Source: Bacteroidales bacterium (GTDB lineage Bacteria; Bacteroidota; Bacteroidia; Bacteroidales; VadinHA17). From it: 38,490 bases of DNA. Below the pieces are notes generated by a model. It made no database searches. It saw nothing but the letters and a program-made list of their open reading frames with translations, and had not been told where the DNA came from. The first letter of the stretch is position 1, and every line of letters begins with the position of its first letter. This document shows, one piece after another, positions 5,312 through 27,096 of this stretch. Made by a program: the position numbers and the translations under genes. The stretch covers positions 1-38,490 of the forward strand of contig JALONV010000016.1 of assembly GCA_025454755.1 (NCBI GenBank), read 5' to 3'.

Positions 5312-8300
5312 TTATTCCCTCCTCAATTCACTGATCAACACCGCATTTCTTACATTTCTTACTGATAATAAAAGTGTTATCAATCCAGTCAGAGCAACCA
5401 GCAAGATCATAATAAGGATTGTTGTCCAGGGAATCTCACTTCCGCTACTTATGGATGGTATTGTTGCAACCAGTCCTGAAAGTGTTCCTGTAAGCAGGCC
5501 CCATGCAAGGATCAGTATCTGATCTCTGAGAATATGATCTCTTATTTTTCTCTGTGAAAATCCTGTTGCAGCCATCAGGGCAAACTCTCTCTTTCGCTGG
5601 TTGAAATTCCTCAAAAGAATAAAACCAAGTCCGGCAACTCCAAGAACCATTCCGAATATCCCAAGGATAGTGAATACATCCAGATATGTGTTTGTGACTT
5701 CCATAAATGATGCAAGTTTTGAACCTGCATCCATAGTCTGGAAACCATACCCATAGAACCTTTCGTTGAGCAATTCCCTGTACCGGTCAGAAAGTACAGG
5801 ATTACCATCGAAAAGAAATACCGAGTTCCCGGATACCGAAGGAAAATATCTTGCCATATCATTATCATGAATAATCATTTGTCCCTGAAAGACAGATGAT
5901 CTGAGGCCTGCGCATATTACCATATTAAGAGGTTGCCCGTCTTCGGCTTTTATAACGATAGTATCTCCGGTCTTAAGCTTGAGGCCCCACTCGAGCACAG
6001 TCTGATCTGCAATTGCATAAATTGTATTTTCTCCTGCATGCGTACCAAGAAGCTCCCATGGATTGGCTCCGGAGTGCTCTTTTAATGTCGAGGCAAATGA
6101 AAACGAACCTCTTCGTATGAAGTTAGCTGGATCAACACCCAGAACAGGAGGAGAGGTTACATGGTTCAGGTTAAGACAACTTGCATCATCACCTGCCAAA
6201 CGGGAGGCCTGAAGAACTTCAAGGTCCCTGAGCTCGTCTTCATGAAGACCAAGTTCTCTTCGTCCTTCTTCCCCTGCAAGATCCTGTTTTATCGGAATAG
6301 CAGACTCTGCCCACAGAAGATATCCGCCTGTTCCGCCCGATGGAAGAAGGCTCCTGGAGGTTATTACCTGCCGGTTTGCTGAGGTGATGACAATTGCAAA
6401 TATTCCGGCAGCTAATACGACGACAGGAATTATTGCCTGCGCTGGATTGAAGAAATAATATCTCTTTGAAAAATGTGAAGTGCTATTTACTTTCTCCTTT
6501 CTACTTTTTCCTTTCTCCTTTATATAATACGATCTCAGGAGCAGGACCATTATTATGAGAAGTAAGGCTCCAGCAATAAAGTAAAGAGCTGTAGATAACT
6601 GATAAGAGAATAAAGCTATACCAAGAATAACTAAATAAATGAGTAATAAAAGACTCAGGATAAGCAAATTACCTTTGTAAGAATGAGTCTTCAACTCACC
6701 TGTCTCTCTTTTAAACAGCAATGATGTGAATGAACTTGACTTAAAATAAATAAGGATGAAGGTTATAAATAATGTAATAAGCAAACCGTAAATGAGAGAC
6801 ATAATACTTAATCCGGCAAGAAGTGTATCGGTCTGAACAGCGCCTTTCCAGACGCCATTTAATGCATTAATAATCAATACATTCATCAGGTATCCCAGAA
6901 AAACTCCGGGAATAGCTCCCAAAAGAGAAAGCAGTGATGCTTCAGTGAAAAGCATTCTTCTAAGGTACTGGCTTCGGAATCCAAGGGAGGACATAGCCCT
7001 GATCTGTTTTCTTCGTGTATCAAAATAGATCGATACGGAAAGAGAAAGAAGAATTATGCACGAAACAATTATAAAGAGGCTCAGGCTGATGAAAAGTGAG
7101 CCAAAATCGGTTCCGGCTTCTGCAGCATCCATAGCGGAATTCCTTAAATCGGTGATTGAAAAGCCTGCCGAGCCAGGATCTATCGATCCATTAAGGATCT
7201 TTTCAATCTCTTCTTCTTCCATCTCTTGCGGAAATCTTACTGCAGTCGCAACTCCAAAGTTATTTGACCAGAGCTTTTTACCTGACTCATAATTTATGAA
7301 AGCTTTCGGTGTTCCTTTGTATTTATTCCAGTAATCCTCATCTTTCCCTCTTATTCTCTCAAGAAGGACAGGAATTCCGGCATCCCAGTCAGAGCAGGAT
7401 GTCCGTCCGGATATTCCGGGAAAATCGGGCATCAACGACGGATCGGAATTAGCGCCATCATTCTCCTGAATCCCGGCGATACGAAAATCGGAAGTCCTTT
7501 CTTCCAGCTTTCCTCTGAATCCCTGGACGAACCAGGTCAGTTTCACAGTATCGCCCGTACCGGAGCCAATATCTTCTGCTACCCACTGGTTGATGATTAT
7601 CTCATCATCAACCAGTCCCCTGGTTACTTGCGATAAAATTGCAGTTACAAAGGAATAAGGTGTTGATTGCCCATTGCAGGAAATCTCATTTGCAAGATAT
7701 GTCAGAACAGGGCAGGAGGAAGGAATCTTATTAATGACAGTCGCGGCAAGAGCGCTGTCTATAAAGATCCTTTCTGAGATAAGTTCAGGCTCACCGGTCT
7801 TTGCAGATCTCCTTATTGATAAGCCTATATCCTGCAATGTCAGGATTCCGGGCAGCAAATTCGTAAATGCAGATAAAGGCAATCCATTTGTATTATCGAT
7901 TAAAAGCCTGTTGGGCTTGACATTTTCATTGACTCCTCTTTCCTCACGGATATTCATAAAAACATTCATCGGTACTGCCTGGCTCACACCGAGCGAAAAA
8001 TTGCCGGATTGTTCAGGCAGCAATATCCTGCTTACCTTCATCACCTTCGATCCTTGATTCTCTGTCTTTGGCGCAAATGGTGCATTGGCAGGAATAGGAT
8101 CTACAGACCTGAAACGGATAATAATTTCATCTCCCGGATTAACATTCAGAAAATCTGCAAGCCTCTTATTTACTGCGACTGTGCCTTTCTCAATAGTAAT
8201 TGTATCACCTGAATTGAAAGCAAAGAAGTCATTGTCAACTGCAAATATTTTTGTGTTTAGTGCAGTCTGCCCGGTGCTGAAGTTCTGACAATATCCATCA

Positions 8301-8593
8301 ATCTCCAGAATTGCAGCAGCTTTGTTTCCGGTTCTTTCTTCAACTCCTGCTGTGAGAGCTGGATCAAAATACCTCAATCCTGAACTGATGACAATATCGG
8401 TATTCCCAAGTTTTTCCTCAGATGTTTTTTTCAGACTGTTCCTGACTGATTCTCCTGTAAGCAGGGATCCTGTTATTACAGCTGTCAGAATTGCAACAAT
8501 AATAATCTGATATACAGCATCTTTCCTGTAGTATTTAATCGATCTGAAAATATTCTTAAAGAAGAAGTTCTTCATTGAGATAGTCCTGATCAA
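5312..8593 (-). CDS. Large two-module FtsX/MacB-type ABC transporter permease
   Basis: The 1093-residue membrane protein has an N-terminal helix (about residues 25-48) followed by a long extracytoplasmic domain. A first FtsX module (about 495-640) contains the coupling motif RKQIRAMSSLGFRSQYLRRM. Several more helices follow (about 645-735), then a second soluble domain and a second FtsX module (about 960-1090) with the matching motif KREFALMAATGFSQRKI. This is the duplicated permease layout seen in YbbP-like and some MacB/LolC-like systems, which move lipoproteins, peptides or lipids at the outer face of the inner membrane rather than importing small solutes. Its ATG overlaps the stop of the ATPase gene as ATGA (8590-8593), which fixes the start and implies translational coupling. 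It is the last gene of the nine-gene operon. The substrate is unknown. Confidence 0.9.
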   Translation of the reverse strand: MIRTISMKNFFFKNIFRSIKYYRKDAVYQIIIVAILTAVITGSLLTGESVRNSLKKTSEEKLGNTDIVISSGLRYFDPALTAGVEERTGNKAAAILEIDGYCQNFSTGQTALNTKIFAVDNDFFAFNSGDTITIEKGTVAVNKRLADFLNVNPGDEIIIRFRSVDPIPANAPFAPKTENQGSKVMKVSRILLPEQSGNFSLGVSQAVPMNVFMNIREERGVNENVKPNRLLIDNTNGLPLSAFTNLLPGILTLQDIGLSIRRSAKTGEPELISERIFIDSALAATVINKIPSSCPVLTYLANEISCNGQSTPYSFVTAILSQVTRGLVDDEIIINQWVAEDIGSGTGDTVKLTWFVQGFRGKLEERTSDFRIAGIQENDGANSDPSLMPDFPGISGRTSCSDWDAGIPVLLERIRGKDEDYWNKYKGTPKAFINYESGKKLWSNNFGVATAVRFPQEMEEEEIEKILNGSIDPGSAGFSITDLRNSAMDAAEAGTDFGSLFISLSLFIIVSCIILLSLSVSIYFDTRRKQIRAMSSLGFRSQYLRRMLFTEASLLSLLGAIPGVFLGYLMNVLIINALNGVWKGAVQTDTLLAGLSIMSLIYGLLITLFITFILIYFKSSSFTSLLFKRETGELKTHSYKGNLLILSLLLLIYLVILGIALFSYQLSTALYFIAGALLLIIMVLLLRSYYIKEKGKSRKEKVNSTSHFSKRYYFFNPAQAIIPVVVLAAGIFAIVITSANRQVITSRSLLPSGGTGGYLLWAESAIPIKQDLAGEEGRRELGLHEDELRDLEVLQASRLAGDDASCLNLNHVTSPPVLGVDPANFIRRGSFSFASTLKEHSGANPWELLGTHAGENTIYAIADQTVLEWGLKLKTGDTIVIKAEDGQPLNMVICAGLRSSVFQGQMIIHDNDMARYFPSVSGNSVFLFDGNPVLSDRYRELLNERFYGYGFQTMDAGSKLASFMEVTNTYLDVFTILGIFGMVLGVAGLGFILLRNFNQRKREFALMAATGFSQRKIRDHILRDQILILAWGLLTGTLSGLVATIPSISSGSEIPWTTILIMILLVALTGLITLLLSVRNVRNAVLISELRRE

Positions 8594-9255
8594 TTCCTCA
8601 GTTTTCCGTTTTCCAGTTTGTAATGGTTTGACATCTTGCCTGCAAGATCATTTGAATGAGTAGCAACGATAAGAGTTATTCCAAGATCAATGTTCAATTC
8701 AGTCAGAAGTGTTCCAAGAAGGCTGGCATTTCTGCTGTCAAGTGATCCTGTCGGTTCATCTGCAAGAAGTATGTCGGGTTTATTGACAAGTGCACGCACC
8801 AGAGTCACGCGCTGAGCTTCGCCACCTGAGATCTGAAAAGGATACTTTCCTGAGAGCGCAGTGATGCCTGTCTTTCCCAATAATATAAGAGCATGTTTCT
8901 CAGCAGCATCGAACTGCTCTTCAGTGATTCTCCAGGCAGATAGTGGAAGTAAAATGTTTTCCCTGACTGTCAGGTGCGGAAGCAGGAGATGATCCTGAAA
9001 TATAAATCCAATATTCCTGTTCCTGTATAAGGCGGATTCATCAGGTGTCATACTCAGAATTGATCTGTCCCTGAAAAATACTTCACCGGAATCCGGCCGG
9101 TCAAGAGATCCGATTATATTCAGAAGTGTTGTTTTACCAGATCCTGAGGGTCCGGTTATGGATATAGAATTACCCTGTTCAATTTTCAGTGAGAGCCCAT
9201 CGAGAACCAGGCCTCGTTGAATGAATGATTTGAAAATGTTCTCCAGTCTGAGCAT
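8590..9255 (-). CDS. LolD/MacB-like ABC transporter ATP-binding protein
   Basis: The 221-residue ATPase is complete: Walker A GPSGSGKT at residues 35-42, Q-loop Gln87 in IFQDHLLLPHLTV, signature ISGGEAQR at 142-149, Walker B ILLADEPTGSLD from 162, and the switch His200 in VATHSND. The IFQ..LLPHLTV..N pattern and the LADEPTGSLD form are characteristic of the LolD/MacB/FtsE group that partners FtsX-like permeases. The signature has Glu where the consensus has Gln, a common variant. It would energise the 1093-residue permease encoded directly downstream with a 4-base overlap. The upstream glycosyltransferase gene ends 20 bases before. Confidence 0.95.
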   Translation of the reverse strand: MLRLENIFKSFIQRGLVLDGLSLKIEQGNSISITGPSGSGKTTLLNIIGSLDRPDSGEVFFRDRSILSMTPDESALYRNRNIGFIFQDHLLLPHLTVRENILLPLSAWRITEEQFDAAEKHALILLGKTGITALSGKYPFQISGGEAQRVTLVRALVNKPDILLADEPTGSLDSRNASLLGTLLTELNIDLGITLIVATHSNDLAGKMSNHYKLENGKLRN

Positions 9256-9274
9256 TTATAATTCCGGGTTTCAG

Positions 9275-10561
9275 TTATTTTCTATTATAGATTTCTGAGA
9301 GAGCAATCGACATCTTTTCCAGTGAAAGCTTTGATCTTACATTCTTGCTGCCTGCATCACCAAACTCTTTCTGCATGGATGGATCAATCAGCAGCCTGAC
9401 AAGCGATTTCACAAGCTCTTCTTTATTATCAGGTGAATAAACTATTCCTCCGGATGTCATTCCCAGAATCTCCGGGAAAGCTCCGGTCGCCGGTTGAACA
9501 ACAGGGATACCTGCACCATTAGCCTCAAGGATGTAGAGACCGTAGCCGTCATATTTTCTGACAGGCACGCTGATTACATTTACATTTCTAAAAAACTCCA
9601 TCTTCTTGTTTCCCAGGAACTCAGGATAGATCCTTACGCTCTTCTGAAATCCTTTTTCCCTGAATTTCTTTATCTGGTCCGAAATAAATGGCTTATCGTC
9701 GCCGGTGAATCCACCGCATACATGAAGTGACAGGTCAGGTACCAGATTGTTCGACTTTATTTCGAGGAAGGCATCTGCCAGCTTGTCAAATCCATTGTGT
9801 GAATTAACCCGGCAGAAATAACCGAGTGAAGGATTAGCAGGCATTGTTTTATCATGAATAGTATTCTCAGGATCGAATCCAAGGGGTACCACATGGACAT
9901 TTTCTCCGCTCAATCCTGTCTTCTTTTTAAAAAGTTCCTTGCTGTATGAACTGGGTGTAATGAAATCGTCGACATGCACGGCTTCCTTTGCAATAATTGA
10001 CCATGCTTTGCTCTGGTATGGCTCAGCCATGTCATCAATCCAGTCGTCTTCATTTAGAAGAGAACATACTATTTTAATATCCATCCTCTTTTTTATCTGA
10101 CGCGCAAGACCCAGAATAAGAGCATTTGAAAGGTGTATTACATCAGGTTTGTCGTCTTGCAACAGGTATCTCACCAGCCTGTCGACCTCATGACTCCGGA
10201 ATGCATTGTCTCCTTCGATCATGTTCAGAGTAAGATCCTCATAGCCTTCAGTCCTGGTTGCTCCGGCCTGCCGTGCTGCGAGCTTCAGCAATGGATTCGA
10301 ATCAACAAGTTTGTCCATAAATGCCGGCATATTCCTGAATATCCTCACCTTCTCTCTCAGGTACATGGAAATGGCTCCAAAAAATACTTCCTTTTCGAAT
10401 CCCTCCCTGATGTATGCCTTATCAGGCGGAAGATAAAGAGGTATTGGTTTTGCAATAACTCCCCGCACCTTGCGGATTGCCCTGACGTAAAGCATATCGC
10501 GGTAACAATTGCCGCAGTAAAAAGATCCTCCCGATCCTGTTATCAGATAAACAATCTTCAT
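9275..10561 (-). CDS. GT4-type glycosyltransferase with N-terminal CGNC motif
   Basis: The 428-residue cytoplasmic protein has the GT-B fold pattern of family GT4. It starts MKIVYLITGSGGSFYCGNCY, and the CGNCxRD segment (Cys16, Cys19) marks a subfamily known from Bacteroidota and Planctomycetes. The donor-site end of the fold is DGYGLYILEANGAGIPVV, where Asp338 and Glu346 form the usual acidic-x7-Glu pair with Asp replacing the first Glu. The protein transfers a sugar from a nucleotide donor; acceptor and linkage are unknown. Its start lies 1 base from the stop of the secreted propeller gene and it is followed after 19 bases by the ABC ATPase gene, so it is an integral operon member. It may glycosylate the lipid or protein that the ABC system handles, which is inference. 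Confidence 0.88.
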   Translation of the reverse strand: MKIVYLITGSGGSFYCGNCYRDMLYVRAIRKVRGVIAKPIPLYLPPDKAYIREGFEKEVFFGAISMYLREKVRIFRNMPAFMDKLVDSNPLLKLAARQAGATRTEGYEDLTLNMIEGDNAFRSHEVDRLVRYLLQDDKPDVIHLSNALILGLARQIKKRMDIKIVCSLLNEDDWIDDMAEPYQSKAWSIIAKEAVHVDDFITPSSYSKELFKKKTGLSGENVHVVPLGFDPENTIHDKTMPANPSLGYFCRVNSHNGFDKLADAFLEIKSNNLVPDLSLHVCGGFTGDDKPFISDQIKKFREKGFQKSVRIYPEFLGNKKMEFFRNVNVISVPVRKYDGYGLYILEANGAGIPVVQPATGAFPEILGMTSGGIVYSPDNKEELVKSLVRLLIDPSMQKEFGDAGSKNVRSKLSLEKMSIALSEIYNRK

Positions 10562-10562
10562 T

Positions 10563-11672
10563 TTATTTATTTCCGAACGCCAATAATCTTCCGTCGTCAG
10601 TCAGAAAATAAAACCTCTCTCCGGTTACAGCAGGGGAACTGCTTATCGGTGCACCTGCATTGAAGCTCCATAACTTTCTGCCATCAGTGCGATTCAGCAG
10701 ATAAATATTGCCATCCATGCTTCCGAATAACACACCTGAAGGAGATATGACTGCAGACCCCGTAATCCTTCCGTTTGTCCTGAACTTCCACAACTGTTTT
10801 CCGGTTGAGGCATTATAGCAGTAAAGGTACTTATCCTCATTGCCGATTACAACATGGTTATTGTCAGCAGCGGGGATTCCAAGAATGGATCCTGAGCTCT
10901 GGCCGGCCGGAACTTTCCAAACCACCTTCCGGCCGACAATATCCAGGCAGTAAAAATTTCCATCGTAGTCGCCAAAATACGCTTTCTGGTTAAAGAAGGC
11001 AGGAGAGGCCGCAATGTAGATACCTATATTAATTGTATCCCTCTCCTTGCCCGTCAGTGGATCTGTTATCCTGATTATTCCGTCACAGCCTCCAAACACA
11101 ATTCTGTTAGTGGACACGGCTGGAGTACCGTTTATATAATTCCCGGTTTCCAGCTTCCAGAGCAGTTTTCCTGAAACCGGGTCAACACAATGCAGGAAAT
11201 AATCATAACTACCGAAGATGATACCGGTTTTTTTTCCTGAATTCCAGATATTGGCCGATCCTACAATCTGGTTATCAGAAGAATAAGACCAGGCAGGCTT
11301 TCCTGTTATTTTATTAACAGCAACCATGGTTCCTCCGGAATTGCCAACAATAACATAACCTGAGTAAACAACAGGAGGTGCTTCAATTGCACTTCCCGAT
11401 TCGTATTTCCATTTTATCTTTCCGTCAGTCCCGGCAGCAAACAGCGTTCCTTTATCGTTGCCGAAAAATATCAGCCCATCACTGATTACAGGTGAGGATT
11501 TTGTGGCTGTTCCCGTAGCCAAACTCCAGATAAGCTTCTGTCCTGGTGGTATCTCATGGTCTACCCGACCGCATAAATCAGCTGATCCCCTGAACAGATG
11601 CCAGTTATCGCTCTGTCCATGAAGATTTCCTGTAATGGCGGAAAATGTTAATATTATGATGAGATTTTTCAT
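10563..11672 (-). CDS. Secreted PQQ-like beta-propeller repeat protein
   Basis: The 369-residue protein has an N-terminal signal peptide ending LHGQ at about residue 20, followed by a propeller of about eight blades. Each blade carries a turn of the type DxxTGKxLWK, for example DPVSGKLLWK, NASTGKQLWK and NRTDGRKLWS. The first segment, NWHLFRGSADLCGRVDH, is the N-terminal strand common to this BamB-like family. I see no catalytic Asp/Asn set or Ca2+ site of true quinoprotein dehydrogenases, so cofactor binding is not supported. It probably acts as a periplasmic interaction platform. It is encoded 1 base after the membrane-anchored propeller of the same fold and 1 base before the glycosyltransferase. 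Confidence 0.88.
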   Translation of the reverse strand: MKNLIIILTFSAITGNLHGQSDNWHLFRGSADLCGRVDHEIPPGQKLIWSLATGTATKSSPVISDGLIFFGNDKGTLFAAGTDGKIKWKYESGSAIEAPPVVYSGYVIVGNSGGTMVAVNKITGKPAWSYSSDNQIVGSANIWNSGKKTGIIFGSYDYFLHCVDPVSGKLLWKLETGNYINGTPAVSTNRIVFGGCDGIIRITDPLTGKERDTINIGIYIAASPAFFNQKAYFGDYDGNFYCLDIVGRKVVWKVPAGQSSGSILGIPAADNNHVVIGNEDKYLYCYNASTGKQLWKFRTNGRITGSAVISPSGVLFGSMDGNIYLLNRTDGRKLWSFNAGAPISSSPAVTGERFYFLTDDGRLLAFGNK

Positions 11673-11673
11673 C

Positions 11674-13368
11674 TCAGCGGGCTCCGATACAATAAAGGTT
11701 GTTTTTACTTCTTATATATATTTTCTTTTCCGAAAAAGCCGGTGTGCAGTCACTGTTTTCCCCGACCGGGCAGGATGAGATAACCTTCAATTCTTTGTCG
11801 GCTTCGACAATGTGCATAGTACCGCTTCGGCCAAGAAACCATACTTTGCCGTCACATATTATCGGTGATGCATAAAAAGTATCGTCAAAATAATGAGTCC
11901 ATAATGTGTCTCCCGTTTCGGAATTATAGCACGCCACATCACCATAACCTGTGGCAATAAACAGATATTCATCGGTAGCGACCGGACTCGCAACATCAGG
12001 TGTATAGCTGTTATCTTCCCAGACCTTAGATCCGGTCTTCCCTGGTTTAAGTGCAATGACATTGTAATAATCGGTTGCTGTGAAAACCATTTTACTGTTC
12101 ACTGCAACTGAAGGTGCAACATCTCCGGAAACTCCGGGCAGACTCCACAGCTCCTTACCTGTTACGGGATCATATGCGGATACATTCGGATTTCCATTTA
12201 TGAGAACCAGCGGTTCTCCGTTAAAAGATGCAAGAACAGGTGAGGAATTCACAATGCGCCCATCCCTCGGAGTTTCCCATTTCAACTCTCCTGTTTCGGT
12301 GTCGTATCCGGTAATGGTCAGTTTTTCCTGGCTGTCATACTGGACAATCAGTTTATTATCATAAATCACCAGTGATGCGGAATAGCCATAGATGGTTTGC
12401 GGTGTACCTAAATTCTTAGCCCATTTAAGTTTCCCGTCATGAGAGTAGCCTACAAGGTTCCCGTTTCCGAAAATTGCATATACTCCGCTTTCGGAAACTG
12501 CAGCAGTTGGTACAGCCATTCCGGCTTCAGCATCCGATTCAGGAACATCCTCAGAAGATTCCTCAAAATCTGATCCTGATCCTGTCCAGAGTATGCTGCC
12601 TGTGTTCTTGTCAATACAATATATTTCAAGATTGCTGCCTTCAGCACCCGTAAGATACAGGTTGCTGCCCCATATCACAGGTGAGTTCTTGCCAGGTTTC
12701 GGGACGGGTATTTTCCATTTTATGTTTTTCCCCTCAGTACCGTTCCATTCTGTGGGGAAGCCCTTGCCGCCTGCAATGCCCCGACTGCCTTCTCCCCTGA
12801 AAAAAGGATAGTTTACATCACCGGGCGTATAAAATATGGTCGACACGGAAACACCTGCATTAATTTTACTGCCTTTTGATTCTGTCGCCGAAGATGGAAG
12901 TTCTGTTCTCAGAATAAATGATGATATGATTGCTACAACAACGAGTGCCCCGGAGGAAATTAAGATGTATCGATGGTTCCTGGTTCTTTCCAGGTCAATG
13001 TCCGGTCTGTCGGATCGCAGTGAGCGTAACGGTTTCCCGCTTCCGTCCACAAGCCTCTGGAAGAATATAAAAATTATGGCCCCTCCAAGCAGCAGATATG
13101 AACCCGTCTCAAGCTGCCACCTGGATGAAAAATAGGCTTTCCTGGCCATCAGATCCATTGCCCTTACCTGATCAGCTTTAGCCGCATCATCGGGACTTGA
13201 ATCAAATTGCTCTATTACCGATTGCAGGGCCTTATTACCTAGCGGGTTGATGGTTTTGAGCTGAACAAGACTGAAGATCATGGTGATGGCTATCACAAGG
13301 GTAAAGACTCCCGATGCCATGCTGATTCCCCTGAAAATGCTGATTTCTTTTTCTGTGAACTTCATCAT
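11674..13368 (-). CDS. Membrane-anchored PQQ-like beta-propeller protein
   Basis: The 564-residue protein has three N-terminal membrane helices (about residues 15-38, 84-106 and 132-152) and then an extracytoplasmic propeller from about residue 185. The propeller begins YPFFRGEGSRGIAGGKGFP, the N-terminal strand typical of PQQ-like/BamB-like propellers, and has recurring turns such as DKNTGSILWT, DTETGELKWE, DPVTGKELWS and NSETGDTLWT. It is therefore a propeller held at the outer face of the inner membrane. Its ATG at 13368 directly follows the last base of the polyferredoxin stop, and its own stop is 1 base from the next propeller gene. It could dock the ferredoxin or the permease; no enzymatic role can be read from the sequence. 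Confidence 0.87.
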   Translation of the reverse strand: MMKFTEKEISIFRGISMASGVFTLVIAITMIFSLVQLKTINPLGNKALQSVIEQFDSSPDDAAKADQVRAMDLMARKAYFSSRWQLETGSYLLLGGAIIFIFFQRLVDGSGKPLRSLRSDRPDIDLERTRNHRYILISSGALVVVAIISSFILRTELPSSATESKGSKINAGVSVSTIFYTPGDVNYPFFRGEGSRGIAGGKGFPTEWNGTEGKNIKWKIPVPKPGKNSPVIWGSNLYLTGAEGSNLEIYCIDKNTGSILWTGSGSDFEESSEDVPESDAEAGMAVPTAAVSESGVYAIFGNGNLVGYSHDGKLKWAKNLGTPQTIYGYSASLVIYDNKLIVQYDSQEKLTITGYDTETGELKWETPRDGRIVNSSPVLASFNGEPLVLINGNPNVSAYDPVTGKELWSLPGVSGDVAPSVAVNSKMVFTATDYYNVIALKPGKTGSKVWEDNSYTPDVASPVATDEYLFIATGYGDVACYNSETGDTLWTHYFDDTFYASPIICDGKVWFLGRSGTMHIVEADKELKVISSCPVGENSDCTPAFSEKKIYIRSKNNLYCIGAR

Positions 13369-14649
13369 CTACGTATTTAACTTAACAGGACAATACCGGA
13401 AGCATTTTCCGCAACTGTAACATCTACCGCGATCAGGTTCATAATCTGTCCTGATCTTTCTTATCGTCAGACGAAACATACTGATGCCAAGCGATAATCC
13501 AAGAAATATGCCAATCCACGGAGCTCCTTTTTTAAACCTCCCGATAATGAGCTGCTCTTCGTCATACAGCTCTTTTTCACTTTTTCCCGATTCAAAGTAG
13601 GCGACAGCTGCTTTTGATACTGCTTTGATTCCGCTTTCTTTTTCAAGCCTTATCTCCCTGGCAAGTTTTACGTCATCATTGACAATTGCAAGGGAAGGAG
13701 CAAGGTTGTAGAAGATAACGGCCAGGGAGGCTGCCATTACAGGGATTAACAGGAAGTAGAGAACGGATTCCTTCCACGATCTCTTCGGCCTTTTTTTAGC
13801 CGGATCAGGATCTGACTGAAGAATTGCATCATAAGGACATCCTGATTCGCATAACCGGCAATTTCTGCATTCTGCCGGAGTTATGGTCAGGTGTCGGACA
13901 GAAAAGCGGGAAAAAATGTTCTGAAGAACCCCATAGGGGCAGATGTATCTGCAATATGGCCGGTTAACAAAGATTCCGGTAACCAGAAGAAGTGATCCAA
14001 AGATAACCATTGTGTAGGGAGCATCTATCCTGAAGATCCCTACGAATGGATCATAACGGCATATGAGGAACTGGCTCTTGGTTGCAGCAAAAAGTATAGC
14101 AAGGACAAGGTAGACAAATGGTATCGCAGAAAGAATCCCTTCAACTTTCCTTGGTACCTTTACCTGCCTGAATCCTGTGAGTTCCTGAATGGCACCCAGA
14201 GGACAAACACCTGCGCAGAAAACCCTTCCTGAAAGTAAGGCAAATAACAGGGGTATAGCAAAGAACAGGAGCGCTGAAAAGGGCATTGAATAATCATCAT
14301 TGAAGAGTGCCAGCGATACATTCTGAATTGATCCTATGGCGCATATGCAACCCTGCCTGTAAAAGCCAAAATAAGCAAGGGAAAAAACTGATAACCATAT
14401 GAGTCCCTGGCGTGATCTTTTCTTCAAGGCAAGCCAGGAAGCAGCACTCAGAGCAAGGACGAGGACAGCTGCATCCATGTATTCCCACAAAGGCCCGCGC
14501 TGATACTGGAACTGATGTTCAGGGAATGTGTAACCTCCCTCGAATTCAGGCCTGGGAAACCTTTGCTCCTGGGCTTTGGTGACAGTATGCCAGACCAGCA
14601 TTATTGCCAGAACAAGGTACGGGATATATTTCTTGAGTGTTATCTTCAT
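13369..14649 (-). CDS. NapH/NosR/CcoG-like membrane polyferredoxin
   Basis: The 426-residue membrane protein has about seven helices. Two CxxxCP motifs follow membrane segments, CAGVCP (Cys145, Cys149) and CRYICP (Cys233, Cys237), as in NapH, NosR and CcoG. Two ferredoxin-type 4Fe-4S motifs are present: CRNCRLCESGCP (Cys261, 264, 267, 271) and CYSCGKCFRYCP at the extreme C-terminus (Cys410, 413, 416, 420). A further CIC (Cys101, Cys103) sits near a helix end. Unusually, about 140 residues with two more helices separate the two cluster motifs. In the known family members this fold takes electrons from menaquinol and passes them across the membrane. The gene is 2 bases after the Tat-ferredoxin gene, the same pairing as napG-napH. 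No reductase is encoded in the operon. Confidence 0.88.
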   Translation of the reverse strand: MKITLKKYIPYLVLAIMLVWHTVTKAQEQRFPRPEFEGGYTFPEHQFQYQRGPLWEYMDAAVLVLALSAASWLALKKRSRQGLIWLSVFSLAYFGFYRQGCICAIGSIQNVSLALFNDDYSMPFSALLFFAIPLLFALLSGRVFCAGVCPLGAIQELTGFRQVKVPRKVEGILSAIPFVYLVLAILFAATKSQFLICRYDPFVGIFRIDAPYTMVIFGSLLLVTGIFVNRPYCRYICPYGVLQNIFSRFSVRHLTITPAECRNCRLCESGCPYDAILQSDPDPAKKRPKRSWKESVLYFLLIPVMAASLAVIFYNLAPSLAIVNDDVKLAREIRLEKESGIKAVSKAAVAYFESGKSEKELYDEEQLIIGRFKKGAPWIGIFLGLSLGISMFRLTIRKIRTDYEPDRGRCYSCGKCFRYCPVKLNT

Positions 14650-14651
14650 TG

Positions 14652-15290
14652 TTAACTCCCCGGCAATCTATTGTTTTTAAATCTTGCCTGTGTCAGGTTA
14701 TGCCGTGGGAGAGGTTCCTTAGGCTCTTTTTTCAGTTCCTTCCTTAAATATGGTTCTTCGGCTGGCACCCTGATTACTGCATCTGAAGGACAAATACGTG
14801 CTATAGCACATTGATTGCAATTGACGCAAAGATTATGCATTATCTGCAGATAGAGTGAGCCATTCCCAAAGTCGGCACATCCTTTTACACATTTTGAACA
14901 ACCATCACATAGCTTTTCATTAATGGAATATTCGAAATATGGTTCCTCCACAAAAATTCTTTTTATTGCACCTGTCGGACATAACTGATCCTCAGCAGCT
15001 GTGCTGAATTTCTTTGCACCCTGCCTCAGGAATCCCGGACAGAAATCGCAGTAACCGCACATCGGGTAAGCATTCGTGCATTTTACTGCTGAAGGTGTCA
15101 TCACACAGGCTGTCTTACACTGTTCACAGCTTGTGCATTTATAAGGATCAATCTGCCACACGTATCCTTTTACATCCATTTTCTTGGCCAGAATTACGGG
15201 TAGAGAAAGAACCGGAACTGCTATTATCAGTTTTCCGGCACTCCTTACAAACTCACGTCTTGTTCCTTTCCTGTTTCCGTCTTTTTCCAT
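14652..15290 (-). CDS. Tat-exported multi-cluster ferredoxin, NapG-like
   Basis: From the ATG at 15290 the protein has 212 residues. It starts with a twin-arginine signal TRREFVRSAG (Arg11-Arg12) and a hydrophobic stretch ending in VILA, so it is exported folded with its clusters. Cys groups for up to four 4Fe-4S clusters are present: Cys52/55/58/62, Cys71/78/81/84, Cys128/131/134/138 and Cys155/158/161/167, with an extra Cys104. The third position of the last group is spaced CAIARICP rather than the normal CxxxCP. This is the NapG/DMSO-reductase-B layout. The start at 15290 is preferred over 15317 because it leaves 2 bases after the upstream stop instead of a 25-base overlap and places the Tat motif normally. 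It should accept electrons from the membrane polyferredoxin encoded next. Confidence 0.88.
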   Translation of the reverse strand: MEKDGNRKGTRREFVRSAGKLIIAVPVLSLPVILAKKMDVKGYVWQIDPYKCTSCEQCKTACVMTPSAVKCTNAYPMCGYCDFCPGFLRQGAKKFSTAAEDQLCPTGAIKRIFVEEPYFEYSINEKLCDGCSKCVKGCADFGNGSLYLQIMHNLCVNCNQCAIARICPSDAVIRVPAEEPYLRKELKKEPKEPLPRHNLTQARFKNNRLPGS

Positions 15291-15292
15291 CT

Positions 15293-15475
15293 TTATCTTG
15301 ACAGATATATTGAACAATCATCTTCACTCTTGCAGATCCCCTTGCCAGGACATGATGAACAGTCGGAACCGTTCACAATCCTGCTTCCGGTAATGGCAGC
15401 AATAGTCACCAGCAGGCCAAACAGCAGGAAACGAATCAACTTTTTAATAAATGCACTTCTGTCCATATAACTCAA
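15293..15475 (-). CDS. Small Cys-rich single-pass membrane protein, unknown function
   Basis: This 60-residue protein has a basic N-terminus, one hydrophobic helix (about residues 15-33) and a short tail containing four Cys in CSSCPGKGICKSEDDC (Cys39, 42, 48, 54). The tail would face the periplasm if the positive-inside rule holds. I do not recognise the family. Its start overlaps the stop of the NHL-like gene as ATGA (15472-15475), and its own stop is 2 bases before the ferredoxin ATG, so it is very likely translated. The four Cys could bind a metal or an iron-sulfur cluster, or form disulfides; nothing seen decides among these. Confidence 0.75.
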   Translation of the reverse strand: MSYMDRSAFIKKLIRFLLFGLLVTIAAITGSRIVNGSDCSSCPGKGICKSEDDCSIYLSR

Positions 15476-16398
15476 TCTTTTTTCTTAAACACATACAGTT
15501 TAGAATCAGCGGGATTAGCCCCGTAAATAACTTTGCCGTCGACGGAAGCGATATCAAGTGGGAGCGGCGGTACAAAACTATTAACAGAAGAGACGAATTC
15601 TATAAATCCGCCTTTATCACTGATTACCTTGATCCTGTTTATTCCTTTCTCTGCGGTCACAAATCCTCTCTCCATCGGTGTAAAATGTGCCGGATTGCAA
15701 CAACCGCAGAAAGCATCCGGCTCACTGCCTGATGTTCCGAAAGAATCCAGTATTTTTCCGTCAAAATTCCTTTTCTCAATTCTTTTGTTGCCTGTATTTG
15801 CGACATAAACCGTATTATTACCACCAAGAACAACATCAAAATACAAGCTTGGAATAGTAAACGGATCGGTTGATTTTCCTATCAGCGATTTTACCTGTCC
15901 CTGCTTGTCGAGAATAAAAACAGACTTGTTAACTGCATCGGCAAATGCCACATTCTTTTCATCCGAAGAAAGGGACGTTATTACCGCATTGCTTTCAAAA
16001 GGACCCCATTCTTCTTTCTTTTCACCAGCTATATTCAGTAAGAGTATAATCCCGTTTGCAGCAGCATAGATATTTTGTCCTGATGCAGAAAGAGCAGTAA
16101 CAGGCATTCCGGTTTTATACTCCCAAAGCAGCTTAAAATCAGGATCATAACATGTTATAAACGATTCACCTCCAAGAAGGATATCTCCTTTGCCTGTAAT
16201 GGCGACCGAACTTAACTGCCCTTTCCCCGGATCAAATACCATGGAAACAAACCACCGGTCATCAATTCCTGTCAAAGCGGCGGGTGAGGCCGGAGCAGTT
16301 ATTTTCTCTTCTTTCAGTGCTACATCAACTACGATATATGAAATGAAGACCATCAGAAGGATAATAATTGTTACAGTTGACCATTTTCTGTTCATCAC
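15472..16398 (-). CDS. Membrane-anchored NHL-like propeller with CGCCNP motif
   Basis: The 308-residue protein has an N-terminal signal anchor (residues about 8-27) and an extracytoplasmic repeat domain. The repeats look like NHL/6-bladed propeller strands, for example VYVANTGNKRIEKRNFDGK. A striking CGCCNPAHF segment lies at residues 231-239, where three Cys sit in four positions inside the propeller. Similar GCCNP segments occur, as far as I recall, in some NHL proteins next to iron-sulfur proteins; whether it binds metal is unknown. It is the first intact gene of the operon, coupled by ATGA to the small Cys-rich protein. An adjacent ATG codon at 16395 is an equally possible start. Confidence 0.82.
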   Translation of the reverse strand: MMNRKWSTVTIIILLMVFISYIVVDVALKEEKITAPASPAALTGIDDRWFVSMVFDPGKGQLSSVAITGKGDILLGGESFITCYDPDFKLLWEYKTGMPVTALSASGQNIYAAANGIILLLNIAGEKKEEWGPFESNAVITSLSSDEKNVAFADAVNKSVFILDKQGQVKSLIGKSTDPFTIPSLYFDVVLGGNNTVYVANTGNKRIEKRNFDGKILDSFGTSGSEPDAFCGCCNPAHFTPMERGFVTAEKGINRIKVISDKGGFIEFVSSVNSFVPPLPLDIASVDGKVIYGANPADSKLYVFKKKD

Positions 16399-16479
16399 TC
16401 AGTTTTTTTATCAACGTCTAAGCATATCATTTTATGTGCATCTCTGAGAATAATATGTTTTCCTGCAGGCGCCATCGGG

Positions 16480-16669
16480 GCCCATTCCGATCCCGTCGGT
16501 CTCCCACAAAAGTGATGGTCCCTATGCAGGACAGGATCTCAGCAATCCGGTTTCATTATATATTCCTGTTCTGCCTGTTCCTTGCCAACCATACTGTTGT
16601 CCGAATAAATTTCCGTTGATAGAAACCAGAAGAACTGCAAAAATGATCTTTATAAAAACATCTTTTCAT
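16480..16669 (-). pseudogene. Relic of a secreted PQQ-like propeller (N-terminus only)
   Basis: On the minus strand the ATG at 16669 opens a signal peptide whose frame is broken in a run of five T a few codons later. Removing one T restores a hydrophobic stretch ending LFGQQ. The same frame then reads GWQGTGRTGIYNETGLLRS, CPA, a TAG at 16524-16522, and GPSLLWETDGIGMG. This matches the conserved N-terminus of PQQ-like propellers, where Trp normally stands at the Cys. So there is a frameshift, a lost Trp, an in-frame stop and no propeller after about 60 residues. It lies 81 bases upstream of the operon that encodes two intact proteins of the same fold, and probably once belonged to it. Confidence 0.7.
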
Positions 16670-17126: not shown

Positions 17127-18794
17127 ATGTGCGGAATTGTAGGAGTTTTTGATCTGAAGGTTAACCATACCGAATTAAGGAGCAGTGTGCTGAAAATGTC
17201 GAAAAAACTCAGGCATCGCGGACCCGACTGGTCTGGAATCTTTTACTGCGAAAAGGCAATACTTGCCCATGAACGCCTTTCAATAGTTGATCCTCAATCG
17301 GGCAAACAGCCTTTATACAGCAAGGACGGGAATCTGGTACTTGCAGTGAACGGAGAGATTTACAATCACCAGGATATAAGAAACCGGTTTGAGGGCACTT
17401 ATGAATTCACAACTCACTCAGATTGTGAAGTCATACTTCCGCTATACAGGGAAAAAGGCCCTGCATTCCTTGAGGAAATGAACGGCATCTTCGCATTTGC
17501 ACTCTACGACAGGGAAAAGGATTGTTATCTGATCGCCCGTGATCATATTGGAATTGTACCTCTGTATATAGGTTGGGATCAGTTCGGGAATTTCTTTGTA
17601 GCCTCCGAACTTAAAGCTCTGGAAGGTGTCTGCAACAGGATCCAGGAGTTCCTGCCCGGGCATTATCTGTACAGCAGGGAAGGCGAGATAAAGAAATGGT
17701 ACCAGCGCGACTGGATGCAATATGAAGCTGTCGAAAAAAACGAAACATCGATCAGCGACCTCAGAGATGCAATGGAAGCTTCCGTTCACCGTCAGCTTAT
17801 GTCGGATGTTCCATATGGCGTGCTTCTGTCAGGAGGACTTGACTCCTCAATAGTATCTGCCGTTGCAAAGAAATTTGCCCCCAAAAGAATTGAAACGCAG
17901 GATAAGAGTGAAGCATGGTGGCCTCAGCTGCACTCGTTTGCAATTGGACTGGAAGGCTCACCCGACCTTGCATCGGCGCGAAAGGTCGCTGAACATATCG
18001 GAACAATACATCATGAAATAAACTTCACCGTGCAGGAGGGACTCGATGCTTTGCGGGACGTGATTTATCATATCGAAACATATGATGTTACAACTATCCG
18101 GGCTTCCACACCCATGTACCTTCTTGCCAGGGTCATTAAATCGATGGGAGTGAAGATGGTTCTTTCCGGAGAAGGAGCCGATGAGATTTTCGGAGGTTAC
18201 CTCTATTTCCATAAAGCTCCGGATCCGAAGGCATTTCATGAAGAGACAGTGAGAAAGCTTAGTAAACTGCATCTCTACGACTGCCTCAGGGCAAACAAAT
18301 CTCTTGCAGCATGGGGCGTCGAAGGCCGGGTACCGTTCCTTGACAAGGAATTCATGGATGTGGCCATGCGCCTCAATCCGAAAGACAAAATGATCACAAA
18401 AGATAAAATGGAAAAATGGGTTCTCAGAAAAGCATTCGAGGATTATCTCCCTCCCACCATTGCCTGGCGCCAGAAAGAACAGTTTTCTGACGGCGTAGGG
18501 TACAGCTGGATAGACACTCTCAGGGCGCTGGCATCGAAAGAGGTCTCTGATGAACAGCTTAAAAATGCAAAGTACCGCTTCCCGATAAATCCTCCGATGT
18601 CGAAGGAGGAATACTTTTACAGAACGATCTTTGCTGAGCATTTCCCCTCAGATTCAGCAGCATCATGCGTGCCTTCAGTTCCATCGGTGGCATGCAGCAC
18701 TGCTGAAGCCCTTGCCTGGGATGAATCATTTAAAAATATGATTGATCCATCAGGAAGGGCAGTTAAAAGCATTCATATCGATTCATATAAATAG
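17127..18794 (+). CDS. asnB: Asparagine synthetase B, glutamine-hydrolysing
   Basis: The 555-residue protein has the same length as E. coli AsnB. It begins MCGIVGVFD, where Cys2 becomes the N-terminal nucleophile of the class II glutaminase domain (residues 2 to about 200) after Met removal. The glutamine-site motif NGEIYNH is at 75-81. The synthetase domain has the ATP pyrophosphatase loop LSGGLDSS (SGGLDS at 235-240) and the SGEGADEIFGGY motif. It makes asparagine from aspartate, glutamine and ATP in the cytoplasm. It is monocistronic by context, with its own promoter upstream and a converging gene downstream. Confidence 0.96.
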   Translation: MCGIVGVFDLKVNHTELRSSVLKMSKKLRHRGPDWSGIFYCEKAILAHERLSIVDPQSGKQPLYSKDGNLVLAVNGEIYNHQDIRNRFEGTYEFTTHSDCEVILPLYREKGPAFLEEMNGIFAFALYDREKDCYLIARDHIGIVPLYIGWDQFGNFFVASELKALEGVCNRIQEFLPGHYLYSREGEIKKWYQRDWMQYEAVEKNETSISDLRDAMEASVHRQLMSDVPYGVLLSGGLDSSIVSAVAKKFAPKRIETQDKSEAWWPQLHSFAIGLEGSPDLASARKVAEHIGTIHHEINFTVQEGLDALRDVIYHIETYDVTTIRASTPMYLLARVIKSMGVKMVLSGEGADEIFGGYLYFHKAPDPKAFHEETVRKLSKLHLYDCLRANKSLAAWGVEGRVPFLDKEFMDVAMRLNPKDKMITKDKMEKWVLRKAFEDYLPPTIAWRQKEQFSDGVGYSWIDTLRALASKEVSDEQLKNAKYRFPINPPMSKEEYFYRTIFAEHFPSDSAASCVPSVPSVACSTAEALAWDESFKNMIDPSGRAVKSIHIDSYK

Positions 18795-19461: not shown

Positions 19462-20025
19462 ATGAAACCTTCAACCTCTTGTCTTCTCTTTATCTCTCTT
19501 GCAGCTGCCGGATGTTCTCAGCCTGCTAAAAACAAGCCTCTGCCAAATATTGTTTTTATTCTTGCCGATGATCTGGGCTACGGAGATCTTAGCTGTTATG
19601 GTTCAACCAGCCTTAGTACTCCTAATATCGACGGGATTGCAGCCCATGGATTGTGGTTTGCGAATGCCCATAGCACATTAGCAATAAGTACCCCTTCGCC
19701 ATATTCTCTTCTAACCGGTGAATATGCATGGCGTAGAAAGGAAACTGGCGTCATGACAGGAAAATCAAAATCGGACCGCGACTGGGTGGTCGAACATTCA
19801 TCAAATGGAAGATTGTCATTGATAAAAGGCTACTGGAAATATATTGAACCGGGTCCAGGGGTAAAGATAAATGCTAACACCAATACTGAGACCGTAAATG
19901 ATCCTTTGCCCCGGCTTTACAATTTAAAAACCGATTTGGGAGAGAAGAATAATGTAGCTGTCGAAAATCCTGCTATTGTTAAGGAATTAACAGATCTGCT
20001 TCAAATAATAAAAGAAAATAAATGA
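19462..20025 (+). pseudogene. Internally deleted sulfatase lipoprotein with damaged active site
   Basis: The 187-residue frame has a lipoprotein signal (LAAAGC, Cys18), the sulfatase metal motif ILADDLGYGD (Asp36, Asp37) and the strand PNIDGIAAHG. The formylglycine signature reads STPSPYSLLTGEY (from Ser76), where the invariant Arg of C/S-x-P-x-R is replaced by Pro80, one base change from CGA to CCA. Right after ETGVMTG (about residue 100) the sequence jumps to VVEHSSNGRLSLIKGYWKYI, which belongs near the end of a sulfatase of about 500 residues. So some 300 residues have been lost in frame. Loss of the Arg and most of the fold means no sulfatase activity. The parent belonged to a Ser-type S1 subfamily like its two neighbours. 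Confidence 0.82.
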
Positions 20026-20026
20026 C

Positions 20027-20083
20027 GTACAGCGCTGGCGCGGATTTGCAATCCGTGTACTTGCTCGCTTGTAATCCGTGCCA
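20027..20083. repeat. Intergenic palindromic repeat (GCGGATT/AATCCG type)
   Basis: TGGCGCGGATT (20036-20046) can pair with AATCCGTGCCA (20073-20083) with one G-T mismatch, and also with a nearer AATCCGTG (20050-20057). A GTAC at 20027-20030 pairs with GTAC at 20057-20060. The two alternative partners make competing hairpins. Similar CGGATT...AATCCG palindromes are, as far as I recall, dispersed between genes in many Bacteroidota. It lies between the sulfatase relic and the intact sulfatase. Confidence 0.5.
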
Positions 20084-20100
20084 GAATAAAATATTATAAT

Positions 20101-21777
20101 ATGCTCAAAATTAAACCAATTCTTCTAACAGGTTTTGCATCGTTGCTGGTTACTGGCATTGCCGGACAACAATCACAGAAACGCCCCAACATCCTCTGGA
20201 TATCAACAGAAGATATGAGCCCTCACCTGGGATGTTATGGCGATAAAGTGGCAAAAACACCTAATATTGACAGGCTCGCATCACAGGGCATTCGGTATAC
20301 AAATGTCTACACTACGGCAGCCATCAGTGCACCATGCAGGGCCGGCATTATTACAGGCATGTACCAGACATCTATAGGCTGCATGCATATGAGAACAACA
20401 TCTTACCGACGGTCGGCTGATAATCCTTTGCAGTTTACTGCCGTTCCTCAACATTACGTAAAAGCTTTTACCGAATACATGAGAGCCGCCGGTTACTATT
20501 GCACAAACAATTCAAAAACCGATTATCAGTTCGCAAAAGATCCGGTTCCTGCCAGCATCTGGGATGAATGCAGTAAAAGTGCTCATTACCGTAACAGACC
20601 CGATAAAAACCAGCCTTTCTTTGCAGTATTTAACTGGATTGGTACACATGAGAGTCAGAACTGGGATATTTCTAAAGTTAAAACTGACCCAAAACAAGTT
20701 AATGTCCCTCCATATTATCCTGATAATGAAATAATAAGGAAGACCCTCGCAAAAATGTACGACAATATTGCCCGTCTCGATTCTGTGGTTGGTGCTCTTC
20801 TTAGGGAGCTTGAAAAGGAAGGGGAACTTGATAATACGATCATCTTCTTCTGGGGAGATCATGGAGACGGGTTGCCCAGAGCAAAAAGATGGCTTTATGA
20901 TTCCGGACTGAATATCCCGCTTATAATCAAATGGCCCGATAAGTCCAATTCAGGGTATGTTGATGACCGGCTCATAAGCTCAATTGATTTTGGACCAACG
21001 GTATTGTCTCTTGCCGGTATTCCAGTCCCTGCCCACATGCAGGGAAAGCCATTTCTCGGTAAGCAGGCGGTCCCTCCAAGGAATGCTGCTTTCGCAGCGC
21101 GAGACAGGGTGGATGAGTCGTATGATATGATAAGATCTGTACGTACAAAAGATTACCTGTACATCCGAAATTATTATCCAAATGAGCCATTTGCAATATG
21201 GGTGCCCTATCTGAGTAACATGCCCATTTATAAGGAGATGCTAAGGCTCGATGCTGAAGGAAAACTTGCCGGGCCGCAGAAATCATGGATGGCTTATTCA
21301 CGTCCTCCGGAAGAACTGTATGATGTCAAGGCTGATCCTTTCCAGATCAATAATATCATCAATGATCCAAAATATACAGCTGTTCTCGGGGAGCTAAGGG
21401 ATAGGCAAAAAGAATGGACTCTCGAAACAGGAGACATGGGCCATCTGAACGAACCCGAGATGATCGAACAGATGTGGCCGGGTGGTATTCAGCCGGTTAC
21501 TGATATGCCTTACTTCATTATCAATTCATCAGAAGACCGGGCCTCAAAAAACTATCGCACCGGAGGAGAGTATACTTGTCCGATGACATTAGGATTCTAT
21601 TGCCCTACCCATGGTGCATCTATGGTCTATGCATTTGAAGAAAGAAATAATCCTCACTGGCTTCTTTACACAGGCCCGCTGAATCTTAAGCCTGGAACAT
21701 ACAACATCCGTGTTAAGGCAGTGCGGTATGGATACAAAGAGAGTGAGGAGCTTAAAGGTTCATTTGAAATAAAATAG
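20101..21777 (+). CDS. Secreted Ser-type S1 family sulfatase
   Basis: The 558-residue protein has a signal peptide ending GIAGQ, then the metal-binding start ILWISTEDMSPHLGCYG (Glu37, Asp38) and TPNIDRLASQGI. The active site is ISAPCRAGIITG: Ser76 is the residue to become formylglycine and Arg80 completes S-x-P-x-R. A late metal motif FFWGDHGDG lies near residue 250. Ser at the first position means maturation by an anSME-type enzyme, and one is encoded in this window. Compared with typical sulfatases it has an extra C-terminal beta domain of about 100 residues (from about 460). It releases sulfate from a glycan in the periplasm; the exact S1 subfamily and substrate cannot be fixed by eye. Confidence 0.92.
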   Translation: MLKIKPILLTGFASLLVTGIAGQQSQKRPNILWISTEDMSPHLGCYGDKVAKTPNIDRLASQGIRYTNVYTTAAISAPCRAGIITGMYQTSIGCMHMRTTSYRRSADNPLQFTAVPQHYVKAFTEYMRAAGYYCTNNSKTDYQFAKDPVPASIWDECSKSAHYRNRPDKNQPFFAVFNWIGTHESQNWDISKVKTDPKQVNVPPYYPDNEIIRKTLAKMYDNIARLDSVVGALLRELEKEGELDNTIIFFWGDHGDGLPRAKRWLYDSGLNIPLIIKWPDKSNSGYVDDRLISSIDFGPTVLSLAGIPVPAHMQGKPFLGKQAVPPRNAAFAARDRVDESYDMIRSVRTKDYLYIRNYYPNEPFAIWVPYLSNMPIYKEMLRLDAEGKLAGPQKSWMAYSRPPEELYDVKADPFQINNIINDPKYTAVLGELRDRQKEWTLETGDMGHLNEPEMIEQMWPGGIQPVTDMPYFIINSSEDRASKNYRTGGEYTCPMTLGFYCPTHGASMVYAFEERNNPHWLLYTGPLNLKPGTYNIRVKAVRYGYKESEELKGSFEIK

Positions 21778-21791
21778 AAATAGGGAAGCTT

Positions 21792-21828
21792 GGGGATTGG
21801 GGCCTGGGGCTTGGGGCTTGGGGCTTGG
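21792..21828. repeat. G-rich 7-bp tandem repeat, left flank of four-helix-bundle gene
   Basis: Five GGGG runs begin every 7 bases (21792, 21799, 21806, 21813, 21820), most in the unit GGGGCTT, followed by a final GG. The three-base spacers make this a canonical G-quadruplex pattern on the plus strand. It lies 14 bases after the sulfatase stop and about 60 bases before the four-helix-bundle ATG. Confidence 0.8.
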
Positions 21829-21890
21829 ATTATAGTTTGTGAATTAAACAGTGACAACGAAATAATTTTTAAACTTAACAACCATTGACA

Positions 21891-22253: not shown

Positions 22254-22285
22254 TAATCCCAGGAATATGCCTGTAACTATCAATA

Positions 22286-22369
22286 CCATGCCCCATGCTC
22301 CATGCGCCATGCTCCATGCCCCTTGCTCCATGCCCCATGCCCCATGCCCCATGCCCCATGCTCCTTGCC
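22286..22369. repeat. C-rich 7-bp tandem repeat, right flank of four-helix-bundle gene
   Basis: About eleven 7-base units of the type CCCCATG or CTCCATG, with CGCCATG, CCCCTTG and CTCCTTG variants, fill the space between the four-helix-bundle stop and the next sulfatase. The minus strand reads GGGGCAT repeats, again G4 runs with three-base spacers. It is thus inverted relative to the left GGGGCTT array and shares its 7-base period. Confidence 0.85.
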
Positions 22370-27087: not shown

Positions 27088-27096
27088 AAATAAAAA

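Follow-up and report, generated by a model that had tools for sequence, protein, structure and literature searches.

A conserved gene cluster joining a membrane ferredoxin pathway to propellers, a glycosyltransferase and an ABC transporter, and its reduced copy in a Bacteroidales bacterium

The NapGH and NosGH–NosDFY systems, which supply periplasmic reductases with electrons, combine a membrane polyferredoxin with an exported multi-cluster ferredoxin, and in the nos layout an ATP-binding cassette (ABC) transporter lies near the electron-supply genes. A ferredoxin pair of similar make-up occurs in a 38,490-nucleotide stretch of DNA from a Bacteroidales bacterium (GenBank assembly GCA_025454755.1, contig JALONV010000016.1; hereafter the window, meaning this stretch at its full length), but here it belongs to a set of nine genes without a reductase and with several propellers, a GT4-family glycosyltransferase and an FtsX-type permease. 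We found that these nine genes are a reduced copy of a conserved cluster of about a dozen genes shared by bacteria, most of them uncultured, from at least three phyla. Its gene set and domains, its co-inheritance, the conservation of its cofactor ligands and its losses in the window's lineage were all observed in the genomes described below. Every part comes from a known superfamily, and the novelty lies in the system rather than in its proteins. The initial annotation of the window had called the system undescribed, and our literature searches, as judged on titles and the opening lines of abstracts, likewise turned up no description of the cluster.

Nine genes and their described relatives

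A check of open reading frames (ORFs) confirmed the run of nine minus-strand genes from position 5312 to 16398, all of them intact, and searches with domain models upheld the earlier domain reading of all nine products:

nhl, 15472..16398, minus strand: NHL-type propeller anchored in the inner membrane, with an invariant Cys-Cys-x-Pro (C233, C234, P236) and E250 K251; likely start at ATG 16395
c60, 15293..15475, minus strand: 60-residue protein with a single hydrophobic segment and C-x2-C-x5-C-x5-C, a four-Cys pattern present in 25 of the 25 rows gathered by the family profile
fd, 14652..15317, minus strand: ferredoxin with a signal of the twin-arginine translocation (Tat) type (R20, R21, F23) for export, 17 Cys and room for four [4Fe-4S] clusters; likely start at ATG 15290
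polyfd, 13369..14649, minus strand: NapH/NosR-like membrane polyferredoxin with 15 Cys, including C145xxxC149P, C233xxxC237P, two CxxCxxCxxxC motifs and the extra C101 and C103
pqqB, 11674..13368, minus strand: membrane-anchored propeller like those that bind pyrroloquinoline quinone (PQQ), with hydrophobic segments at about 11–35, 89–107 and 135–157
pqqA, 10563..11672, minus strand: PQQ-like/BamB-like propeller of 369 residues whose N-terminus resembles a signal peptide (by eye)
gt, 9275..10561, minus strand: GT4-family glycosyltransferase with a conserved N-terminal F-Y-C-x-N-C-x-R-D (C16, C19)
atp, 8590..9255, minus strand: LolD/FtsE-like ABC ATPase
perm, 5312..8593, minus strand: two-module FtsX-type permease of 1093 residues with a TTG start, an ATG start being possible at 8575

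The overlaps at 8590–8593 and 15472–15475 had been reported as ATGA; the sequence reads TTGA at both, and the frames there begin at TTG, with later ATG starts possible. The FtsX domain matched perm in two stretches, LolD was the nearest model for atp, and both pqqA and pqqB scored on BamB/PQQ_2 models; nhl had no Pfam match above cut-off and a weak likeness to an NHL-repeat protein model. The RR-x-F and cluster Cys residues of fd are conserved among its relatives in an alignment that excluded family members shorter than 0.7 of the median length, and the CxxCH motif is absent from all nine window proteins. A scan of the sequence gave 36 promoter-like and 13 terminator-like hits (26.2 with standard deviation 4.3 and 9.4 with standard deviation 3.4, respectively, in shuffled sequences) and was not used.

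Each of the closest families resembles the cluster only in part. The polyferredoxin has the motifs of NapH (two CxxxCP and two 4Fe-4S) but at 61.7 bits fell short of the NapH/MauN cut-off (213.05), and none of the eight NCBIfam matches of fd at E ≤ 0.1 was to MauM/NapG, a model that we take to be present in the library. With LolCDE, MacB and ADOP the cluster shares a LolD-like ATPase and an FtsX-domain permease, which here is a single two-module protein encoded beside redox and propeller genes; the scores fell below the LolD, MacB and ADOP cut-offs (204.1 bits against the LolD equivalog cut-off of 307.75 for atp, and 33.5 bits against the ADOP subfamily cut-off of 622.3 for perm). The propellers share the fold of BamB and PQQ-like proteins, but here they are membrane-anchored or exported, number up to about five per locus, include one (pqqY of the fuller loci) with invariant R-N-H/C/H/Q residues, and were seen in no β-barrel assembly machinery (BAM) context. 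On the model for PQQ-dependent dehydrogenases, which has a cut-off of 480.05 bits, pqqA and pqqB reached only 71.9 and 49.6 bits.

Conservation of the cluster and its losses in the window

Using fd alone as the query against a collection of 84,980 species genomes, we obtained 175 relatives, of which the best-scoring 80 supplied the loci (numbered with an L) for our counts. Loci were annotated with tblastn and family profiles; each count takes only loci with enough flank, and a gene is scored as present wherever it lies in the locus, provided that it is on the same strand. Locus L046, in which fd and polyfd lie among masked stretches and unrelated partner genes (it is possibly masked or chimeric), was counted as negative. 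Judged by record title, most of the 80 loci come from Bacteroidales, Prolixibacteraceae and Prevotella-like metagenome-assembled genomes, followed by Planctomycetota and Verrucomicrobiota and one Deltaproteobacterium. The usual gene order is pqqX-pqqY-nhl-c60-fd-polyfd-pqqB-nuoEF-nuoG-pqqA-gt-atp-perm, and in Planctomycetota gt/atp/perm (and pqqA) frequently lie upstream.

The ferredoxin gene was accompanied by polyfd in 73 of 73 loci, pqqB in 64 of 65, nhl in 64 of 70 and pqqY in 61 of 63, with a pqqX-like gene in 32 of 63 and c60 in 36 of 75. Among the 54 loci that could be scored for the remaining genes, nuoEF was found in 44, nuoG in 43, pqqA in 44, gt in 32, atp in 40 and perm in 38, and at least one of gt, atp and perm in 44. 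The distance matrices of fd, polyfd, pqqB, pqqA, gt, atp, nhl, pqqY and nuoEF (perm and c60 excluded, and members shorter than 0.75 of the median length dropped) were correlated in all 36 pairs (r 0.83–0.97), with 0 of 300 permutations as high, indicating that the gene set travels together.

The ferredoxin is rare in the window's class, with fd found in 4 of 395 genomes, counting the window's own, and in a sample of 296 genomes from the phylum either the glycosyltransferase (E ≤ 1e-30) or fd (E ≤ 1e-20) was found only in the window's genome. Among 179 genomes of a planctomycete class, 49 had fd, 76 had gt (a count that includes likely off-system relatives, 37 genomes having gt only) and 39 had both (Fisher p 6e-10, kinship ignored); in 14 of the 39 the two genes share a contig and lie no more than 20 kb apart. 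The neighbourhood search, the planctomycete co-occurrence and the distance matrices thus agree that the grouping proposed in the initial annotation is one co-inherited unit; we looked in other genomes for a separation of the ferredoxin/polyferredoxin genes from the propeller, glycosyltransferase and ABC genes and found that they do co-occur. The nine genes are not the whole system; fuller loci carry two further propellers and, mostly, a module of the Bfu type encoded by nuoEF and nuoG.

Directly before nhl, a scar at 16395–16669 that the initial annotation had overlooked marks the propellers lost from the window copy, a deletion having joined the N-terminal relic of pqqX to the C-terminus of pqqY:

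pqqX N-terminal relic, 16465..16669, minus strand: 61% identical over 67 residues to L016, with an apparent frameshift near the start and an in-frame TAG at 16524–16522; truncated by the deletion
pqqY relic, 16395..16457, minus strand: the final ~20 codons, with a stop that overlaps the nhl ATG (TGATG)

Because the scar holds several lesions, real decay is favoured over an assembly slip. The window cluster has no BfuBC gene, as checked with ORFs and family profiles, and searches of the window genome (97.8% complete) at the thresholds used found no pqqY orthologue (best propeller match 24%), no cyclase match and no fused nuoEF; nothing closer to the last turned up than NuoF/HydB-like paralogues, the best at 51% over residues 204–802 and without the NuoE part. 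These results led us to reject relocation of Bfu or pqqY elsewhere in the genome. In a tree of polyfd, the eight Bfu-less rows, the window among them, formed one branch as against 53 Bfu rows (100/97); the tree held 73 rows, 12 of them in neither Bfu group (including L018, L046, L078 and L086, with nuoEF not found in the last three), and excluded L009–L011, L091 and rows of 330 residues or fewer. Because the Bfu-less branch is nested among Bfu-bearing Bacteroidales, one loss explains it most simply, and the absence of Bfu from the window's clade is, judging from this tree, a derived loss.

The nine remaining genes gave ratios of nonsynonymous to synonymous change (pN/pS) of 0.12–0.45 against up to six sister loci, values that average over the whole divergence rather than the time since the deletion and for which synonymous sites are near saturation. 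Five sister loci (L013, L014, L016, L017 and L020) show the reverse pattern, in which pqqY is kept and nhl was not found. These five and L021, all Bfu-less, also carry an extra propeller gene (best family pqqB) that is convergent and lies after perm; at that position the window has a carbonic-anhydrase-like gene (by eye).

The Bfu-type module, a putative propeller site and the cyclase genes of fuller loci

In L043, nuoEF encodes 812 residues with NuoE, NuoF-FMN, NADH_4Fe-4S and Fer4 domains. Among solved structures it comes closest to NfnB (9n5u), a HoxF-type chain (8oh5) and the NiFe-hydrogenase subunit HydB (7t2r), which are parts of electron-bifurcating enzymes (in part after PMC9304861). 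By our own ligand mapping, which leaves the fifth B2 ligand unmapped, the B2 ligand His733 is kept in 49 of 49 rows, as are the B2 residues Cys738 and Cys743; the cluster Cys residues are conserved in every row compared (from 49 of 49 to 51 of 51), except for two B5 Cys that 49 of 51 rows retain. PMC9304861 places the B2 His in virtually all BfuB and describes it as absent from non-bifurcating HydB homologues. The nuoG product is BfuA-like, with a short form in 28 of 43 rows and a long form in 15, 11 of which have a GAGP dinucleotide motif. Relative to the described family (BfuABC; HydABC, Nfn-Bfu/Stn), nuoEF shares the domains and ligands of BfuBC, but it unites the BfuB and BfuC parts in one protein and is encoded beside a membrane/periplasm ferredoxin pair, a partner that the consulted portions of PMC9304861 do not mention, and the window copy lacks Bfu altogether. 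The same source counts 17 BfuB clades without an obvious function, and the cluster's Bfu may be one of them.

AlphaFold2 models of nhl from the window (mean predicted local distance difference test score 92.3) and pqqY from L043 (89.0) each showed an N-terminal helix at residues 4–28 followed by a propeller. The nearest folds to nhl were NHL domains, and those to pqqY were YxaL, BamB (Z 28–32) and tetrathionate hydrolase, so that pqqY is predicted to have a PQQ-like propeller fold; sequence and fold searches with both proteins returned generic propellers only. In pqqY, residues R161, N162, H163, S166, R167, C225, H267, Q366 and T368 were invariant. Because 10 of 17 invariant residues checked lie within 16 residues before the first strand of a blade (strands assigned by eye from the model), their placement in the loops ahead of blade strands suggests that they form a ligand-binding or active site.

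Ahead of the core, 14 of the 80 loci carry a gene for a DUF116–polyprenyl synthase fusion and two squalene-cyclase-like genes; 13 of these loci come from Prevotella-like or related Bacteroidales, and the other is L040. Most of the 14 also have radical SAM and iron-sulfur (Fe-S) protein genes. One of the cyclases, SHCb, keeps PDxDDT in 25 of the 25 rows listed, and DxDD is the class II cyclase motif. The cyclase shares this motif and the N- and C-terminal domains of squalene-hopene cyclases (SHC), but it scored below the SHC equivalog cut-off and is encoded with the fusion, radical SAM and Fe-S proteins. The planctomycete locus L172 has the order rSAM-PPS116-SHCa-SHCb-pqqA-gt-atp-perm-pqqY-nhl-fd-polyfd-pqqB-nuoEF, and SHCb and fd occur together in 11 of 20 planctomycete stretches, which were picked mostly for linkage and show gene order rather than frequency. 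Eight of these have at the rSAM position a different protein that resembles (by eye) one from L133, which scored over the cut-off on Pfam Radical_SAM and below it on the B12-binding radical SAM model TIGR04013. In several other genomes the isoprenoid module is separate from fd. A named strain, Mangrovibacterium lignilyticum, has both sets: L053 holds its fd, propeller, glycosyltransferase and Bfu genes, and L134 its cyclase module. PMC5898192 describes a DUF116–polyprenyl synthetase fusion in Pirellula staleyi and suggests electron transfer for DUF116.

At E ≤ 1e-8 a cyclase was found in 14 of 49 core genomes selected from the 80 loci. In the window's class only 1 of 395 genomes had one (E ≤ 1e-30), a genome that is also fd-positive and has the two genes ~6 kb apart. 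Among the 179 planctomycete genomes, 39 had the cyclase and 26 had both it and fd (Fisher p 4e-9, kinship ignored), within 20 kb on one contig in 12 of the 26.

A proposed electron route, its alternatives and the surrounding genes

With moderate confidence, we propose that the cluster forms a membrane-spanning system that carries cytosolic low-potential electrons to a periplasmic propeller complex anchored in the inner membrane, with the GT4 enzyme and the ABC transporter handling an envelope molecule. The direction of electron flow and the partners are inferred from domains and residue conservation, and the formation of a complex and the substrate are likewise proposals. A cytosolic Fe-S/flavin donor would pass electrons to the membrane polyferredoxin, which would pass them to the Tat-exported ferredoxin and (through c60) to the propeller complex. 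Fuller loci would use the BfuBC/BfuA-type NAD(P)H/ferredoxin unit as this donor. The GT4 enzyme would make, and the LolD/FtsX-type transporter extract or move, an envelope molecule on which the propeller complex acts, for which our best guess is an isoprenoid-derived lipid. The window's lineage would need either quinol or a shared cytosolic ferredoxin as donor and would have to make do with pqqA, pqqB and nhl, unless the copy is losing its function.

A more specific version, which is tentative and rather improbable as a whole, makes the cluster the membrane and periplasmic half of an undescribed anaerobic pathway for a cyclic isoprenoid envelope (glyco)lipid. The polyprenyl synthase–DUF116 fusion, radical SAM enzyme and class II cyclase would build the lipid, the GT4 enzyme and FtsX-type ABC transporter would glycosylate and extract it, and Bfu would supply electrons that cross the membrane through the polyferredoxin and ferredoxin and reduce the lipid on the periplasmic propeller complex; the window's lineage would keep only the periplasmic half, acting on an acquired or different lipid. 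If the proposal is right, the system would send electrons to the periplasm from a bifurcating enzyme, something that the consulted portions of PMC9304861 do not ascribe to Bfu enzymes, and in many genomes it would be tied to a terpene-cyclase pathway.

Several observations weigh against these proposals. The cyclase is missing from 35 of the 49 selected core genomes and from 23 of the 49 planctomycete genomes with fd, so the cyclase is an accessory and an isoprenoid substrate does not hold for the cluster in general. BamB and YxaL fit the pqqY fold no less than quinoproteins do, and neither a known reductase nor a cofactor site was identified. A search for PqqC was uninformative about PQQ supply, matching 0 of 17 with a control that was also silent. 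All of gt, atp and perm were unseen in 10 of 54 loci, and the five sister loci without nhl indicate that nhl is not essential. The losses in the window copy and its genome, which affect both the donor and the proposed catalytic end, count against the proposal there.

The initial annotation had tied quinol oxidation to the maturation, modification or export of an envelope component. Electron delivery linked to such a component remains plausible; quinol as the ancestral input is not supported, because most loci carry their own NADH/ferredoxin-type Bfu module (44 of the 54 with sufficient flank) and its loss here appears derived. Quinol is a possible donor in the Bfu-less window copy and its clade, which, with the CxxxCP motifs of the NapH/NosR-like polyferredoxin, fits a chain of the NapGH type in which menaquinol is oxidised and a periplasmic reductase or maturase receives the electrons. 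We consider such a chain unlikely, given the dedicated Bfu unit elsewhere and the lack of a NapG model among the matches of fd; a reductase encoded by the cluster was rejected, as no such gene family recurs in the loci examined. Similarly improbable is a scaffold role, in which BamB-like propellers would serve assembly and the redox chain would do no more than hold the thiols or metals of an envelope machine in the reduced state, the main activity lying with the ABC transporter and glycosyltransferase. The BamB and YxaL likeness of pqqY, the BamB/PQQ_2 matches of pqqA and pqqB, the invariant Cys-Cys of nhl and the four Cys of c60 suit that explanation, but the invariant R/N/H/C/Q residues of pqqY look more like those that line a binding or active site, and a bifurcating module would be a costly donor for thiol repair.

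That the window copy is a decaying, functionless remnant would account for the scar, with its apparent frameshift and in-frame stop, and for a genome without a nuoEF orthologue or cyclase; the nine intact ORFs, their pN/pS values and the retention of the other genes in Bfu-less sister loci make it a decidedly doubtful explanation. A chance juxtaposition of an electron-transfer operon with a propeller/glycosyltransferase/ABC operon could draw on the absence of gt from view in most Prevotella-like loci and on the shifted place of gt/atp/perm in Planctomycetota, but we regard it as extremely improbable and rejected it on the locus counts, the planctomycete co-occurrence and the correlated distance matrices.

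Other genes accompany the cluster in the window and elsewhere. An asparagine synthetase B-like gene (17127–18794) is divergent from the cluster in the window, and 15 other loci likewise have it as the minus-side neighbour. Genes for a LytS-like sensor and a LytTR-like regulator lie before the cluster in L075 (L075:3–1259), and LytS-like and LytTR-like genes occur in 11 and 12 loci, respectively, including L022, L023 and L040. Farther along the window, at 19462–23965 and 29974–31338, lie sulfatase-like genes together with one for a radical SAM protein that resembles an anaerobic sulfatase maturase (by eye), with sulfatase-like ORFs in 11 further loci (33 ORFs from 12 sources). Two transposase-like ORFs, one IS4-like and one REP/IS200-like (by eye), lie at 25750–27609, and two long tandem WD40-repeat proteins are encoded at 31381–37770, the first with a caspase-like end (SGHG and DACHSG, by eye).

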